Assembly: GCA_003209165.1 (NCBI GenBank)
Contig: QCSL01000001.1
Coordinates: 1-64,000, forward strand
Direction of reading: 5' to 3'
Origin: Synechococcus sp. AG-670-B23
Lineage (GTDB): Bacteria; Cyanobacteriota; Cyanobacteriia; PCC-6307; Cyanobiaceae
Length of the DNA: 64,000 nt
Positions 35,386 to 63,454 of the stretch are shown here, piece by piece. How positions within the stretch are numbered: the first letter of the stretch is position 1; every line of letters starts with the position of its first letter. The notes beneath the pieces are model-generated. The model did not search any database. It saw only the letters and a list, made by a program, of their open reading frames with translations, and was not told where the DNA came from. Position numbers and translations under genes: made by a program.

Positions 35386-37416
35386 TTGAACAATCCCATC
35401 CAACCCGGAGACACCGTCGCGGTTGTTCTTAAGGGTTCCCCACTCATCGGCCGTCTTCTGTCCATCAAGGGCAGCAAGGCGGTTGTTTCTTTTGGCGGTC
35501 AACGTCGGGATCAGGGCCTCCCCCTGCGAGACCTGATTGCTATCGATCCGGATCATCTGTTCGATAACAGCGTTCTGCCCGCCCCCGAGCAGGTGCAGGA
35601 CAGTGCCCCATCAGCCCGGGCCGTCGTTGAGGCCTGGCAGCTGCTTGAAACAGATCAACCAGGCGGAATGGCTCGACTCAGCCTCTGCGAACTGGGAGAG
35701 CTTGTACTGACACCCCTCAACCTCGAAGGTTTGGCAGCCCTCTGGAGCTGGTTGCTTGGGCCCCAGCAGTTGTTCCGCTGGAGGCGTGATCGCATGATCC
35801 AACCGCTCACCAGGGAGGAACGGGCCAGTCTGCGGCGCCAACGCCGTGCTGAGCGCCACGCGCAACAGCATGAACAACGGCAGCTCGCGTTGCTCCGGGC
35901 GGAGCGTGCCCTCAGCGACGATGAACGCCTCGAACTGGGCCAGGTTTGGAATGAGCGCTTCAGCCACTGGATTCAGCTGCTGAAAGACAATCCCGCGGCG
36001 GTGGGCTCCGACTTGGATCTCCAGCAATGGTCGGCACCGTTATCGATCGGATCTGATGCCGCCGATCTGCGGCAGTGGTTGAGCGTGCGTGGGTTGCTCG
36101 ATCCCAATGAGCCCATTGGCCTGAGAGGCAGCGTCTGGTCTTGCAGTTTTCCCACTGATCTGTTGGAGGAAGCGAATCGCCTCGTTGCGTTGTCCAGAGA
36201 GGAGCTGCCTGGGGATGAGCAGCGAATCGACCTCACCGACCTGGCCACCTACAGCCTGGACGATGCGGGAACCCGCGAAGTTGATGACGCGCTCTCCCTG
36301 GAGCGTCGTGGCGGCGTTGATTGGATCTGGATCCACATCGCTGATCCCAGTCGGCTGATCGGCATCGACTCCCCCCTCGATCAGGAAGCCAGACGTCGGG
36401 CCACCAGTTTGTACCTGGCGGAGGGTATGATGCCCATGCTCCCTCTGGAGCTGGCAGCCGGTCCCCTCAGCCTGCTGGCCGGGCAGCGTTGTGCCGCCTT
36501 GAGTGTGGCCGTTCGCCTTGATGACGATGGTGCTGTAACGGAACAACGGATAGCGCGCAGCTGGATCCGACCCCGCTACGGACTGACTTACGCCGACGGG
36601 GATGAGCTGATCGAGTTGGCCCCCCCGGGCGATGAATCCTTGTCGGATTTAGCGAGGCTGTTGAAGCAGCGCATGCGCTGGCGTCGCTCCAACGGGGCCG
36701 TCATGTTTGACCGACCCGAAGGACGCTTCCGCCGCAGCGATGCTGTACTGAGCCTTCAGGTTATTGATCCGTCACCCTCTCGATTGATGGTGAGTGAAGC
36801 GATGCTGCTGATGGGGGCAGTTGTCGCCAACTTTGGTCAACAGCACAAACTCCCGCTTCCATACCGCAGCCAACCTGCAGCGGAGTTGCCAAGTAGCGAT
36901 GAACTTGACCGCATCCCAGAGGGACCAGCGCGCGATGCGGCAATCAAGCGTTGCCTGAGTCGTGGCATACAGGGCACACGACCCATGCCCCATTTCAGCC
37001 TCGGATTGGCCGCCTATGTGCAGGCGACATCACCGATACGTCGGTATGCGGATCTTGTGGCTCACCGGCAGATCCTTGCCCAGCTTTCGGCTGTTCCACC
37101 CATGAGCGAGGAGCGTCTGGGGGAACTGATCGACGATCTTGACGACCCGCTTCGGCAATCCATTCAGATCAGTCGCGAGGATCAACGCCACTGGCAACAG
37201 GTTTGGTTTGCGGAACGTCAGAGCACCGTCTGGTCTGCCGAATTCTTGCGATGGTTGCGCCCCCAGGATCGCTTGGCCCTGGTTCATGTCAGCGACCTGG
37301 CAATGGATTTGGTTGGTTGTGTCGCTTCAACAGACCCTGCGCCAGGCGACACCCTGGAGCTCAAGGTGGGTCGCGCTGATCCCGTGCGCGGTGAATTGCA
37401 GCTTCAGATGGGGTGA
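35386..37416 (+). CDS. rnb: Ribonuclease II family exoribonuclease
   Basis: A processive 3'-5' RNA exonuclease of the RNB family, 676 residues from TTG 35386. It has the catalytic aspartate cluster LDDAGTREVDDALSLE near residue 290. GVDWIWIHIADPSRLI follows, and the C-terminal catalytic motif TSPIRRYADLVAHRQI lies near residue 545, so it should be active. An N-terminal KOW/SH3-like beta segment (GDTVAVVLKGSPLIGRLLSI) is typical of the cyanobacterial/plastid type. It differs from the second RNB protein at 58.4 kb, which lacks these motifs. The 3' end overlaps the convergent FAD gene by 13 bases. Confidence 0.92.
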   Translation: MNNPIQPGDTVAVVLKGSPLIGRLLSIKGSKAVVSFGGQRRDQGLPLRDLIAIDPDHLFDNSVLPAPEQVQDSAPSARAVVEAWQLLETDQPGGMARLSLCELGELVLTPLNLEGLAALWSWLLGPQQLFRWRRDRMIQPLTREERASLRRQRRAERHAQQHEQRQLALLRAERALSDDERLELGQVWNERFSHWIQLLKDNPAAVGSDLDLQQWSAPLSIGSDAADLRQWLSVRGLLDPNEPIGLRGSVWSCSFPTDLLEEANRLVALSREELPGDEQRIDLTDLATYSLDDAGTREVDDALSLERRGGVDWIWIHIADPSRLIGIDSPLDQEARRRATSLYLAEGMMPMLPLELAAGPLSLLAGQRCAALSVAVRLDDDGAVTEQRIARSWIRPRYGLTYADGDELIELAPPGDESLSDLARLLKQRMRWRRSNGAVMFDRPEGRFRRSDAVLSLQVIDPSPSRLMVSEAMLLMGAVVANFGQQHKLPLPYRSQPAAELPSSDELDRIPEGPARDAAIKRCLSRGIQGTRPMPHFSLGLAAYVQATSPIRRYADLVAHRQILAQLSAVPPMSEERLGELIDDLDDPLRQSIQISREDQRHWQQVWFAERQSTVWSAEFLRWLRPQDRLALVHVSDLAMDLVGCVASTDPAPGDTLELKVGRADPVRGELQLQMG

Positions 37417-57316: not shown

Positions 57317-57691
57317 ATGACCCGAGAGAAGCCGCAATGGACCTGCATCAAACACTGTGGCGCCTGTTGCCGACTCGCCCCCGAAGAGCGAGCTGATGCA
57401 CTGGCGGCTTTGAGCGAGGAGCAACAACGCACCTATCTGGGCATGGTTGGCGACGATGGCTGGTGCATTCACTACGACACGGGTAGTCAGCGCTGCTCGA
57501 TTTACGAGGAGCGTCCTGATTTTTGTCGTGTCAGCGGTTTGGGCCACCTGTTTGACGTTCCCGATGATCAGTTCAATGACTTCGCCATCACCTGTTGCAA
57601 TCAGCAGATCCGCAGCACCTATGGCGGTCGCAGTGGGGTGATGCGTAGGTTCAAGCGATCGCAGACAGCCGGAGGGCCTGTTGAACAATGA
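57317..57691 (+). CDS. YkgJ-type cysteine-cluster protein
   Basis: A 124-residue soluble protein with cysteines placed as in the YkgJ/zinc- or iron-chelating domain: WTCIKHCGACCRL near the N-terminus, GWCIHYD, RCSIYEERPDFCRV and a later ITCCNQQ. These probably bind a metal, which is inferred from family. No enzymatic role is established. The stop overlaps the next TTG start by 11 bases. Confidence 0.85.
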   Translation: MTREKPQWTCIKHCGACCRLAPEERADALAALSEEQQRTYLGMVGDDGWCIHYDTGSQRCSIYEERPDFCRVSGLGHLFDVPDDQFNDFAITCCNQQIRSTYGGRSGVMRRFKRSQTAGGPVEQ

Positions 57692-58013
57692 GCAAACCAG
57701 CAGCGAGTCGCGAAGCTTTGCTGCCGTTCTGTTCAGCACCTTCACCACGGTATTTGTGGCTGAACTGGGGGACAAAACACAGTTGGCAACACTATTGCTC
57801 TCCGCTCAGTCTGGCTCACCAGTTCTGGTGTTCATCGGTGCCGCACTGGCGTTGATTGCCTCCAGCCTTGTGGGCGTTCTTGTGGGGCAATGGTTGGCCA
57901 AAACCCTTCCCCCTGAGCGTCTTGAACTGATGGCTGGAGTGCTGATGGTGGCGCTTGGAATCTGGCTGGGTCTGCAGGCCGCCCGATCCCTTTGGCTTAA
58001 CGCCGCGAGCTGA
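57681..58013 (+). CDS. UPF0016 half-size transporter, first copy
   Basis: A 110-residue membrane protein with about three helices and one ELGDKTQLAT motif (near residue 28). Full-length UPF0016/GDT1 proteins have two such motifs in one chain; here the halves are separate genes lying in tandem. Split cyanobacterial versions have been described as hemi manganese exchangers (Hmx1/Hmx2) that form a heteromer, to my recollection. Likely exports Mn2+ from the cytosol. The start is TTG 57681. Confidence 0.85.
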   Translation: MNNEQTSSESRSFAAVLFSTFTTVFVAELGDKTQLATLLLSAQSGSPVLVFIGAALALIASSLVGVLVGQWLAKTLPPERLELMAGVLMVALGIWLGLQAARSLWLNAAS

Positions 58014-58015
58014 CT

Positions 58016-58333
58016 ATGGATTTCCCTCTTCTGATTTCCACCTTCTTGACGGTGTTCCTCGCTGAACTCGGTGACAAGACCCAACTCGCCACAGTTGCAA
58101 TCAGTGGCACCTCCAATCAGCCACTAGCGGTATTTCTTGGATCCTCATCAGCTTTGGTTCTTGCCAGTTTGCTAGGAGCCTTTGCCGGTGGATCCGTCGC
58201 GACGGTGATCCCCAGCGACTTTCTTCAGCTGGTGGCCTCCCTCGGTTTTCTTGTGATCGGCGGGCGCTTGCTGGTGCCTCTCTTCCATGGGAAGCAACTC
58301 ACTGCAGATGGAGATCAGACTCCTGAGCCCTAA
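58016..58333 (+). CDS. UPF0016 half-size transporter, second copy
   Basis: A 105-residue partner of the previous gene, three bases downstream. ELGDKTQLATVAISG near residue 17 carries the cation-binding motif. Three helices follow (AVFLGSSSALVLASLLGAFAG, FLQLVASLGFLVIGGRLLVPLF). The two halves differ in sequence outside the motif, which fits opposite-orientation partners. A hydrophilic tail (ADGDQTPEP) closes it. Manganese export is inferred from family. Confidence 0.85.
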   Translation: MDFPLLISTFLTVFLAELGDKTQLATVAISGTSNQPLAVFLGSSSALVLASLLGAFAGGSVATVIPSDFLQLVASLGFLVIGGRLLVPLFHGKQLTADGDQTPEP

Positions 58334-58431: not shown

Positions 58432-60753
58432 ATGAAATTCACGGTTGCCGATCTGCTGGATCAGCTCTCGACGGACCACTCGTCTGAGCCCGACCAACTG
58501 GCAAAAATACTCAGGCTCAGCAACAAGACCGATAAGGCATCGCTTGACCTTGCCATTACATCACTGGTGAAGATCGGTGTGATTCAACAGTCGAGTGAGG
58601 GGGGTCTCACACGACCCCAAGTCAGCGAGCTGATTGATGCCCGCCTGCGCTGCAGCAGCAAAGGCTTCTGCTTCGCTATTCGCGATGACGGCGGTGAGGA
58701 CATCTACATCCGAGACCATCAACTGAACCACGCCTGGAATGGAGATCGTGTTCTGGTGCGGGTGACCCGGGAGGGCGGACGCCGCCGCTCTCCAGAAGGT
58801 GGTGTGCAGTGCATCCTGGAACGGGCCACCCAGTCGCTCCTGGCTCAAGTTGAACAGCAGAGTGAGCAGCTGCTGGCCTCCCCCCTGGATGACAGGGTGC
58901 TCGCCGGCATCGAACTGCCACCAGAGGACTCAAAGCATCTGCCGGGTGATGAGGTTTCAAGCGTTGTTGAGGTGCGAATTGACCGCTATCCCGTGGCTCA
59001 ACATCTAGCGGCTGGTCATATTGTGCGTTCACTACCGCTCAATGGCGGCCCTGCGGCGGATCGAGACCTTTTGCTCACCAAAGCCGGGCTCCAGGACCGT
59101 CCAGCAGCACCTCGTAGCTCTGGCAAAACCCCTGCGACCAAGGGCCGTGTCGACCTCACCGCGCAACCTTCTCTCCTGCTCAAGGGATGGAGGCAGGAGG
59201 ATGCACCGGGGTTGCCTGCCGTTCATGTGGAAGCCAAGGACGGTGGTTGTCGCCTTTGGGTGCATGTGCCCAGCGTGGGCGAGCGGATTGGGACGGGCAG
59301 CAGCCTCGATGCCTGCCTGCGCGATCGCGGTGAAGCGCTCTGCCTCGGTGAGATCTGGCAACCACTGCTGACGCCCGCCCTCAACAAGGCAACAACCTTC
59401 TCCTCCGGTTCCGAGGCTGATGCCATCAGCGTTCGTCTGGACATCGCAGCCGGTGGAGAGGTCACAGACTGGGAGTTCATGTTGAGCTCGGTGCGCCCCG
59501 CTGCCGCAGTCAACGCTGATCAATTGATCGCGCTTGCGGAACGCAAACCCAAGGCGCGCAGCATCCCAGCGGTACTTAAACCGATTAAAGACCAGCTCGG
59601 ACAGTTGGAGACACTACGGTTTTGCTGCACCCTGCTGCTGGATCAAGAGCGAAGCTGCGGGGCTGTGCAACTTGATCTCTGCCCTCCCCAGCTTGAAGCC
59701 CTTGGTGACCTCCGCAGCGCGGATCCATCCGGTTTACGTCATCGCTGGATTGATGCTTTCAACCCGATGGACCCCCATTCTTTCCTCCAGCCTTTGTTGA
59801 GGGCTGCCGATCGTGCATGGACGGCGCAACGACACGCTCTGCAATTGCCCGGGATCACCATCGAGGCGGATGAACCCGATGGCAGCGTTATGACGGATGT
59901 GGCGAAGACGGCCATCGCCTTGGATCTCCCCCTCGAGCTGGATGATGATGGTTGTCCATCAGCTTCAGAACTTATCCAGGCGTTCCAAGACAGCAACCAT
60001 CGTCGTGTGCTTGAACAGCAGCTCAGTCACGCCCTGCCGCCCCTCAGCCTTGTGGCATCAACAGAGACGACCTCTGCGTCAGCAGATTCCGATGTGGAAG
60101 AGGCTGTACCGACGAGCCCCAACACGCCCCTCACCCCTTGGACCTGTGCCACCCAGCACTACGCACACCTGGTAAACCAGCTGTTGATCGTTGCTTTGCT
60201 CAGCGATGCGAAGGATCGACCAACCGTGCGTCACAAGACGCGCTTGAAGCTTGGGCTAAAGGGAGTCGGCACTGATCTCACATGGCCTCTCTTCACGGCA
60301 TCCCAGGACGAGAAGCTGAATGGATTAGTGAACGACCGCACCTTGCAGCGGCTCAACACCCGTCGACGTCAGGTGCTGGAACTGGAAAAGGATCTGCTGT
60401 CGATGATCCAGGCCCGTTCAGCTCAGCTGTTGATTGGCCAACAGGTAGAAGGCCTTATCAGTGGTGTGCAGAGCTATGGCTTCTTCGTTGAAGTTGGCGA
60501 GAGTCGCGTTGAGGGTCTGGTTCATGTGAGCTCCCTCAACGATGACTGGTACGAATACAGATCACGCCAGAATCGTTTGGTTGGGCGCAAGAACCGTCAG
60601 ACCTATCAACTTGGTGACTCGGTGCAGGTGCGCGTAATCAATGTGGATGCTCTGCGCAACCAGATCGACCTTGAGGTCATCAGTCAGGGCTCCGCTGGGT
60701 CCACTGAGCCCAAATCGTCGGAGTCTTTGCCCGTTGCACTCAGCGAGCGCTGA
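58432..60753 (+). CDS. RNase R-like protein with lost active-site motifs
   Basis: A 773-residue RNB-family protein with the RNase R layout. An N-terminal winged helix (AKILRLSNKTDKASLDLAITSLVKIGVIQQS) is followed by cold-shock segments (GFCFAIRDDGGEDIYIRDHQ), an RNB-like core and a C-terminal S1 domain (QQVEGLISGVQSYGFFVEVGE). The usual catalytic cluster DxxxxxDxDDA before the GGxxLxVHIA strand reads EDAPGLPAVHVEAKDGG, followed by CRLWVHVPSVGE. The TSPIRRYADLV motif reads TPWTCATQHYAHLV. Metal-ion catalysis is therefore unlikely. It may bind RNA or regulate another nuclease. The frame is intact and not decayed. Confidence 0.85.
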   Translation: MKFTVADLLDQLSTDHSSEPDQLAKILRLSNKTDKASLDLAITSLVKIGVIQQSSEGGLTRPQVSELIDARLRCSSKGFCFAIRDDGGEDIYIRDHQLNHAWNGDRVLVRVTREGGRRRSPEGGVQCILERATQSLLAQVEQQSEQLLASPLDDRVLAGIELPPEDSKHLPGDEVSSVVEVRIDRYPVAQHLAAGHIVRSLPLNGGPAADRDLLLTKAGLQDRPAAPRSSGKTPATKGRVDLTAQPSLLLKGWRQEDAPGLPAVHVEAKDGGCRLWVHVPSVGERIGTGSSLDACLRDRGEALCLGEIWQPLLTPALNKATTFSSGSEADAISVRLDIAAGGEVTDWEFMLSSVRPAAAVNADQLIALAERKPKARSIPAVLKPIKDQLGQLETLRFCCTLLLDQERSCGAVQLDLCPPQLEALGDLRSADPSGLRHRWIDAFNPMDPHSFLQPLLRAADRAWTAQRHALQLPGITIEADEPDGSVMTDVAKTAIALDLPLELDDDGCPSASELIQAFQDSNHRRVLEQQLSHALPPLSLVASTETTSASADSDVEEAVPTSPNTPLTPWTCATQHYAHLVNQLLIVALLSDAKDRPTVRHKTRLKLGLKGVGTDLTWPLFTASQDEKLNGLVNDRTLQRLNTRRRQVLELEKDLLSMIQARSAQLLIGQQVEGLISGVQSYGFFVEVGESRVEGLVHVSSLNDDWYEYRSRQNRLVGRKNRQTYQLGDSVQVRVINVDALRNQIDLEVISQGSAGSTEPKSSESLPVALSER

Positions 60754-60756
60754 GTG

Positions 60757-61365
60757 ATGCATCCCTACGTTTTGGCCGTTACCGGTGCGTCGGCTCAACC
60801 CCTCGCCGAGCGTGCCCTCCAGCTGCTGTTGCAGCGAGGGCGAGCCGTACATCTCGTGCTCAGCCACGGCGCCCATGAGGTCTTCCGCGCGGAACAGGGC
60901 CTTTCCATCCCAGTGGATCCTCTAAAGCAAAGGGAGTTCTGGAGAGACAGACTTGGGGTAGAGAGCGGTGATTTGACCTGCCATCGCTGGAATGATCAAG
61001 CCGCCTCCATCGCGAGTGGTAGTTACCGAACCCGGGCGATGGTCATCGTCCCCTGCAGCATGGGAACCCTTGGACGGATCCACGCGGGTATTGCATCTGA
61101 TTTGATCGAACGCTGCGCGGATGTTCATCTCAAGGAGCGCCGACCCCTAGTGATCGCTCCCCGGGAGATGCCCTTCAATCTGATTCACCTCCGCAACCTC
61201 ACCGGTCTTGCGGAAGCTGGAGCCACCATTGCTGCTCCTATTCCGGCGTGGTACTCAAGGCCCAACTCGCTCGAGGAGATGGTGGATTTTTTGGTGGTGC
61301 GCCTGTTCGATGGCTTAGAGGATGACCTTGCACCGCTGAACCGCTGGAGCGGCCCCCTGGAATGA
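60757..61365 (+). CDS. ubiX: Flavin prenyltransferase UbiX
   Basis: UbiX makes prenylated FMN, the cofactor of UbiD decarboxylases. About 202 residues. Its FMN-binding start is VTGASAQPLAERALQLLL, where most relatives have TGASG. VIVPCSMGTLGRIHAGIASDL near residue 98 and RRPLVIAPREMPFNLIHLRNL near 130 hold phosphate- and flavin-binding loops, followed by AAPIPAWYSRP. ATG 60757 and GTG 60754 are adjacent starts. The gene follows the RNase R-like stop by three bases and overlaps the next gene. Confidence 0.9.
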   Translation: MHPYVLAVTGASAQPLAERALQLLLQRGRAVHLVLSHGAHEVFRAEQGLSIPVDPLKQREFWRDRLGVESGDLTCHRWNDQAASIASGSYRTRAMVIVPCSMGTLGRIHAGIASDLIERCADVHLKERRPLVIAPREMPFNLIHLRNLTGLAEAGATIAAPIPAWYSRPNSLEEMVDFLVVRLFDGLEDDLAPLNRWSGPLE

Positions 61366-62383: not shown

Positions 62384-63454
62384 ATGGTCCCTCCCACCGC
62401 CGTGGCCGAAGGCAGCGCTGTAGCCATCAAGGATCCTGTCAAGGACACAATCCTGACGCCTCGCTTCTACACCACTGATTTTGAAGCGATGGCGGCGATG
62501 GATCTTCAGCCCAACGAGGCTGAACTAGAAGCCATCTGCGAAGAGTTCAGGAAGGATTACAACCGTCATCACTTCGTTCGCAACGAAGAGTTCGAGGGTG
62601 CAGCCGACAAGCTAGATCCGGAAACCCGCAAGGTGTTCATCGAATTCCTTGAGCAAAGCTGCACATCTGAATTTTCAGGATTCCTCCTTTACAAAGAGCT
62701 GAGCCGTCGGATTAAAACCAAAAACCCACTCTTGGCTGAATGCTTCGCCCATATGGCTCGTGACGAAGCGCGCCACGCCGGATTCCTCAACAAGTCGATG
62801 AGCGACTTTGGTATGCAGCTGGATCTCGGCTTCCTAACGGCCAACAAGGACTACACCTTCTTCAAGCCGAAATTCATCTTCTACGCGACCTACCTTTCCG
62901 AGAAAATCGGCTACTGGCGCTACATCGCCATTTACCGCCACCTCGAAAAGAATCCCGACAGCAAGATCTTCCCGATCTTCAACTTCTTCGAGAACTGGTG
63001 CCAAGACGAAAACCGTCATGGCGATTTCTTCGATGCTCTCATGAAGGCCCAACCCGACACGGTTCGTGGGCCGATTGCCAAACTCTGGTGTCGCTTCTTC
63101 CTGCTGGCGGTCTTCGCGACTATGTACGTGCGTGACGTGGCCCGAAAGGAGTTTTACGAGGCTCTCGGTTTGGACGCCCGGACTTACGACAAGATGGTGA
63201 TCGAGAAGACTAATGAAACCTCCTCTCGAGTCTTCCCTGTCGTTCTCGATGTGAACAACGAGAAGTTCTGGTCCCGTCTCGAACGCCTTGTCACCAACAA
63301 CGCTGCCCTCGATCGAGCTGATGCCAGTGATGCCATCGCTCCTGTGAAGCTGCTCCGCAAGCTTCCCTTGTGGATCGGTAATGGTGCCGAAATGGCCAAG
63401 CTGTTCCTGATGCCTGCGATCGACAGCGATCGTTTCCAGCCAGCTGTGCGCTGA
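62384..63454 (+). CDS. acsF: Mg-protoporphyrin IX monomethyl ester oxidative cyclase (aerobic)
   Basis: AcsF (ChlE/CycI) forms the fifth ring of chlorophyll in the presence of oxygen. It is a 356-residue di-iron enzyme: [11 protein letters not shown] near residue 125 and [11 protein letters not shown] near 208 are the two ExxH ligand motifs, with upstream glutamates in [17 protein letters not shown]. The opening [11 protein letters not shown] is typical. It lies alone in front of a tldD-like gene 32 bases downstream. Confidence 0.95.

Follow-up and report, generated by a model that had tools for sequence, protein, structure and literature searches.

The gene zam occupies positions 58432..60753 of the + strand of the window, by which we mean the whole 64,000-nucleotide stretch analysed here, from the first contig of Synechococcus sp. 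AG-670-B23 (family Cyanobiaceae). From its open reading frame, Pfam matches, fold match and orthologues in the family, it encodes an RNase R-like pseudonuclease of 773 amino acids; the ORF listing confirms the long, clean frame claimed in a first-pass annotation of this DNA, starting with ATG and staying open throughout. Three base pairs past the zam stop lies ubiX (60757..61365, +), assigned as a flavin prenyltransferase by the NCBIfam UbiX family and by sequence, and acsF comes next along, at 62384. This arrangement is widely shared: ubiX is directly downstream of zam on the same strand at 30/30 loci of the genus, and follows it within 1.5 kb at 63 of 80 other named cyanobacterial loci, with two more at less than 3.6 kb and several of the misses falling at contig ends, while 6 of 8 heterocyst-type genomes have the same order. 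UbiX supplies decarboxylases of the UbiD type with their flavin cofactor (PMC5159609), and the paper describing Zam makes no mention of ubiX (PMC9145284). A putative role for ubiX in plastoquinone synthesis here would fit the redox theme developed below. At 57681-58333, two adjoining genes encode membrane proteins of half size (about 105-110 aa), both bearing an ELGDKTQ motif, which resemble the halves of a split GDT1/UPF0016-type transporter; both adjoin zam at 30/30 genus loci. Promoter and terminator scans returned nothing above chance.

Within the protein, Pfam identifies OB_RNB (residues 71-126), CSD2 (89-131), RNB (239-591; E 1e-30) and S1 (668-749; 60433..60678, +; 48.8 bits). The first cold-shock domain, CSD1, spans residues of about 66-130 (58627..58821, +) and carries the signature LRC74SSKGFC80FA together with a family-specific C127. 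The RNB domain (59146..60204, +) is catalytically degenerate and has a low yet significant score, 107.6 bits as against 235 for the Rnb paralogue; it contains the former aspartate cluster LLLKGWRQEDAPGLPAV (residues 248-264; 59173..59223, +), aligned to D201-D210 of E. coli RNase II, and PWTCATQHY in place of the SPIRRY motif (residues 569-577; 60136..60162, +), aligned near R500. By sequence, RNase R provides the closest solved structures (8cdu and, from E. coli, 5xgu), and the NCBIfam RNase R model TIGR02063 gives 186.9 bits, below its curated cut-off of 597.85. An AlphaFold2 model built from 60 sequences, with those of Cyanobiaceae, the window's own family, left out (pLDDT 74.4, pTM 0.74), matches RNase R structures over the full length (E 3e-41 to 5e-34, target-normalised TM 0.74-0.82), with confidence locally low at residues 546-557, just ahead of the former SPIRRY motif. 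This model was used in place of an earlier one from 25 sequences (pLDDT 59.5, pTM 0.36), which was set aside as its superpositions were meaningless. As for the domains said to be kept, the cold-shock and S1 domains are recovered by Pfam, whereas the winged helix is named by no Pfam model, and what the structural model offers in its place is an N-terminal helical region. Taken together, the protein shows the order wHTH-like N-terminus, CSD1, CSD2, RNB and S1, on a predicted RNase R fold.

Catalysis in the RNase R fold depends on residues that coordinate two metals and hold the scissile phosphate in place. Alignments with E. coli RNase II and RNase R show that in the window protein D201 is replaced by K251, D209 by L or a gap, D210 by P and R500 by Q, SPIRRY having become CATQHY; the D207 position is occupied either by P or by a lone D257, according to the alignment, and the position of D257 varies among Zams of the family between D, E, N, S, G and Q. 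The window protein does not retain the four metal-binding aspartates and the SPIRRY arginine expected of an active RNase R, in agreement with the earlier claim that the aspartate cluster and SPIRRY motif are both gone. The same holds throughout the family: 0/72 of the Zams read keep any equivalent of D201, D209, D210 or R500. It was specified beforehand that displaced but complete catalytic aspartates would count against this reading, and a column survey of the RNB region of the 72 family Zams, made on sequence alone, found no displaced conserved acidic quartet, which is a strong but not final test. The acidic columns that are conserved either lie at non-catalytic positions common to active enzymes or are scattered along the sequence. 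The degeneracy is not a matter of chance, since all 72 family members read have the gene with its site lost in this manner, and we regard the identification as Zam and its catalytic loss as all but certain on the sequence evidence.

The window also encodes an RNase II paralogue, rnb (35386..37416, +; Pfam RNB 235 bits), whose active site is intact in the alignment (D,E,D,D plus SPIRRY), just as had been noted for the RNase II at 35.4 kb. Its D207 position holds a Glu (TREVDDAL), a conservative change, and Rnb proteins of heterocyst-type genomes show the same D,E,D,D pattern. Two RNB genes are present in the window's genome, which is 88% complete, and this second RNB protein, with its site intact, would supply nuclease chemistry alongside Zam.

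The window gene is the zam orthologue of what its sequence and genome relatives suggest to be a marine Synechococcus-type cyanobacterium, and zam encodes an RNase R-like, site-degenerate protein found across cyanobacteria. Its full-length best matches in relatives are Zams, and the tree groups the window protein with Zams and not with Rnb, with a support of 1.0 for the clade of the window's family and just 0.53 for the all-Zam node. The zam-ubiX neighbourhood that it shares with other cyanobacteria agrees with this orthology. The gene first came from a screen for acetazolamide resistance, and in 2022 Zam was described as an RNB-family protein of RNase R architecture with a degenerate site, a redox-sensitive regulator that is not a nuclease and on which normal photosynthesis depends (PMC9145284). 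In that study, two CSD1 cysteines, C73/C79 in PCC 7002, were redox-active and essential, their C-to-S mutants behaving like the deletion, which lowers phycocyanin synthesis and alters the PSI:PSII ratio; nuclease activity was not detected in the purified, aggregation-prone protein (data not shown by the authors) (PMC9145284). Both signature cysteines are present in the window protein, as C74 and C80 of LRCSSKGFCFA; among the 72 family Zams C74 is found in 97% and C80 in 100%, and outside the family in 97/98 and 96/98, respectively. The protein therefore combines a degenerate RNB site, the paired CSD1 cysteines and orthology with Zams apart from Rnb. It follows that the original observation is correct and already known, the pseudonuclease having been described for Zam in 2022 (PMC9145284): the first-pass annotation was right to read a pseudo-exonuclease, yet it did not recognise Zam, overlooked the redox pair in LRCSSKGFCFA and took a phylum-wide protein for a find.

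Of 59 relatives sampled as far as class level, 57 gave a strong match and the remaining two are incomplete or fragmented assemblies; within Cyanobiaceae the gene occurs in 225 of 251 genomes, including 165 of the 167 good ones. With the window protein as query, no Zam relatives were found in viral contigs. Comparison of 13 close relatives gives a dN/dS of 0.087 for the whole frame, with 0.017 for CSD1, 0.035 for S1 and 0.11-0.12 for RNB, and mean column identity across family Zams follows the same order (CSD1 0.88, S1 0.80, RNB 0.55-0.62). Purifying selection on the RNB domain as a scaffold thus persists, and is weaker than on the RNA-binding domains. The checks of dN/dS and conservation that had been proposed for this gene, together with the catalytic loss, support the suggestion that selection has preserved an RNA-binding scaffold devoid of nuclease chemistry.

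These data are best accommodated if Zam is a redox-switched regulator of RNA turnover that binds RNA and/or RNase E, an explanation that we hold as a whole to be very probable, though its regulatory step is drawn from the work of others and is disputed. Lacking the residues that hold the metals and position the phosphate, the window's Zam would not degrade RNA, and its conserved parts are the predicted RNA-binding OB domains, chiefly CSD1 with its C74/C80 pair, and S1. Photosynthetic electron flow would set the thiol/disulfide state of CSD1, and this state would control the binding of Zam to RNA and/or to the RNase E of the degradosome; altered binding would then shift transcript decay and, with it, the balance of phycobilisomes and photosystems. 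By orthology, the redox switch probably extends to the window protein. Counting against the explanation are the negative RNA-binding result for purified, aggregating Zam in the published work (PMC9145284) and an identity of just about 34% between the window protein and Zams of other families. The RNA-protective role put forward earlier is one of several that are possible.

The part played by RNase E is less secure. The RNase E model was proposed by the authors of the Zam study, for whom the binding evidence is that for Anabaena Alr1240, which Thomas et al. call Zam (PMC9145284). A review reports Alr1240 to be an active RNase II, with unstructured RNA as the substrate that it degrades, and lists two RNB genes for the strain; a transcript table gives alr1240-alr1241-alr1242 as one unit. 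No named Nostoc locus was among those returned by a Leptolyngbya-like Zam query, and the heterocyst-type genomes were found through their HetP genes. In each one read, a single intact Rnb accompanies a single Zam whose site is broken (x-V/T/L-E-N, in most cases with SPLRRY), from which it follows that one of the two published statements about Alr1240 needs correcting, or that the broken site is active. Either the RNase E data have no bearing on Zam, Alr1240 being the Rnb, or activity survives in a broken site. Given this conflict, RNase E as the partner of the window protein seems to us plausible but somewhat short of an even chance.

The same dispute over identity favours a different route, in which Zam acts as a stand-alone RNA-binding protein, protecting or delivering particular mRNAs in the manner of yeast Ssd1, with no involvement of RNase E. 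Ssd1 too is a pseudonuclease of this kind whose cold-shock domains are conserved (PMC8097288), and the strongest constraint in Zam falls on CSD1 and S1. Against this, purified PCC 7002 Zam showed no RNA binding, although the protein aggregates and the authors urge caution (PMC9145284). We consider this route a real but distinctly less than even possibility.

Cyanobiaceae Zams also carry cysteines of their own, at residues 127, 304 and 571-572 (approx. bases 58809-58812, 59341-59343 and 60142-60147, +). C127 lies at the end of CSD1 and is shared by 72/72 family Zams, against 0/98 outside; C304 is Cys in 66/72 and again in 0/98, and sits at the position of RNase II Tyr253, which belongs to the pair of aromatic residues clamping the RNA inside the cavity (PMC3293843). 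A Cys at 571 or 572, within the former SPIRRY motif, occurs in 62/72 family Zams and is rare outside. C304 and C571/C572 are kept or lost jointly more often than expected, by counts made without ancestry correction. One may ask whether the dead cavity of alpha-cyanobacterial Zam has been rebuilt as a cysteine redox or metal site (C304, C571/C572 and perhaps C398), added to a three-Cys CSD1. The near-exclusive presence of these residues in the family and their co-retention would favour this, but the counts remain uncorrected for ancestry, several lineages, including the most divergent, lack the pocket cysteines, and model confidence is low at residues 546-557, so that we think it improbable. 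If true, the cysteine-lined pocket and the three-Cys CSD1 (C74, C80, C127) would form a second input to redox control of RNA turnover.

Outside the family the loss of the active site is graded. Of 106 Zams, an uneven sample in which 80 were taken as the closest loci to a Leptolyngbya-like query, 34 keep D201, D209, D210 and R500, 41 have none of these three Asp, and D207 is found in none. Three catalytic Asp and SPxRRY survive in most of the Leptolyngbya-like Zams examined, which thus come near to having a functional site; the protein of Leptolyngbya sp. FACHB-8 is one that keeps the three Asp and the Arg. On a Zam tree built without the catalytic columns, proteins of differing active-site state are interspersed, suggesting that the site was lost repeatedly and independently after an early change at D207. 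The same history is published for fungal Ssd1/Dis3L2, where the cold-shock domains stayed conserved while the active site disappeared on at least four occasions (PMC8097288). That Zam of the window's family might still be a nuclease, acting through displaced acidic residues, gains something from the lone D257 at or near the D207 position and from the reported activity of Alr1240, which may be a Zam; with D201, D209, D210 and R500 lost in 72/72, D257 unconserved, and the conserved acidic columns scattered in sequence or non-catalytic in active enzymes too, we judge it very unlikely. A decaying pseudogene or annotation artefact, to which only the weaker constraint on the RNB domain lends any colour, is effectively refuted by dN/dS of 0.087 for the whole frame and 0.11-0.12 in RNB, by presence in 165/167 good genomes, and by frames that are open in all family-search matches listed but one, which has one stop.

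An exonuclease fold has thus been retained across cyanobacteria after its chemistry was lost, and apparently ties RNA turnover to photosynthetic redox state. Annotation can be corrected accordingly, such look-alikes of RNase R or exoribonuclease by fold being Zam pseudonucleases. That site loss is graded and not uniform, and is complete in the window's family, adds to published work, as do the additional cysteines, the position of zam ahead of ubiX and the disagreement about Alr1240; the graded series and that disagreement make a published assumption directly testable.

Compared with known systems, the window's Zam shares its full-length fold and domain order with RNase R (E. coli Rnr, B. subtilis 8cdu), whose catalytic Asp and SPIRRY Arg it lacks. 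The cyanobacterial Rnb (Sll1290, and 35386-37416 in the window) has the RNB domain in common with it but keeps D,E,D,D and SPIRRY, and the window's Rnb, unlike Zam, has no OB_RNB or CSD2 by Pfam. Yeast Ssd1 (7am1; fold match E 8e-25) is likewise an RNB pseudonuclease with conserved cold-shock domains; it differs in being fungal, in deriving from Dis3L2 and in having lost activity independently, and no redox cysteine pair is described for it in the portion of the study at hand (PMC8097288). The closest counterparts are the Zams of PCC 6803 (Sll1910) and PCC 7002 (A1543), with the same architecture, C-X5-C pair, degenerate site and co-existing intact Rnb. The window protein is about 31-38% identical to Zams outside the family, and its lineage stands apart from Sll1910 and A1543 in having lost every catalytic position and in its extra cysteines C127, C304 and C571/C572.
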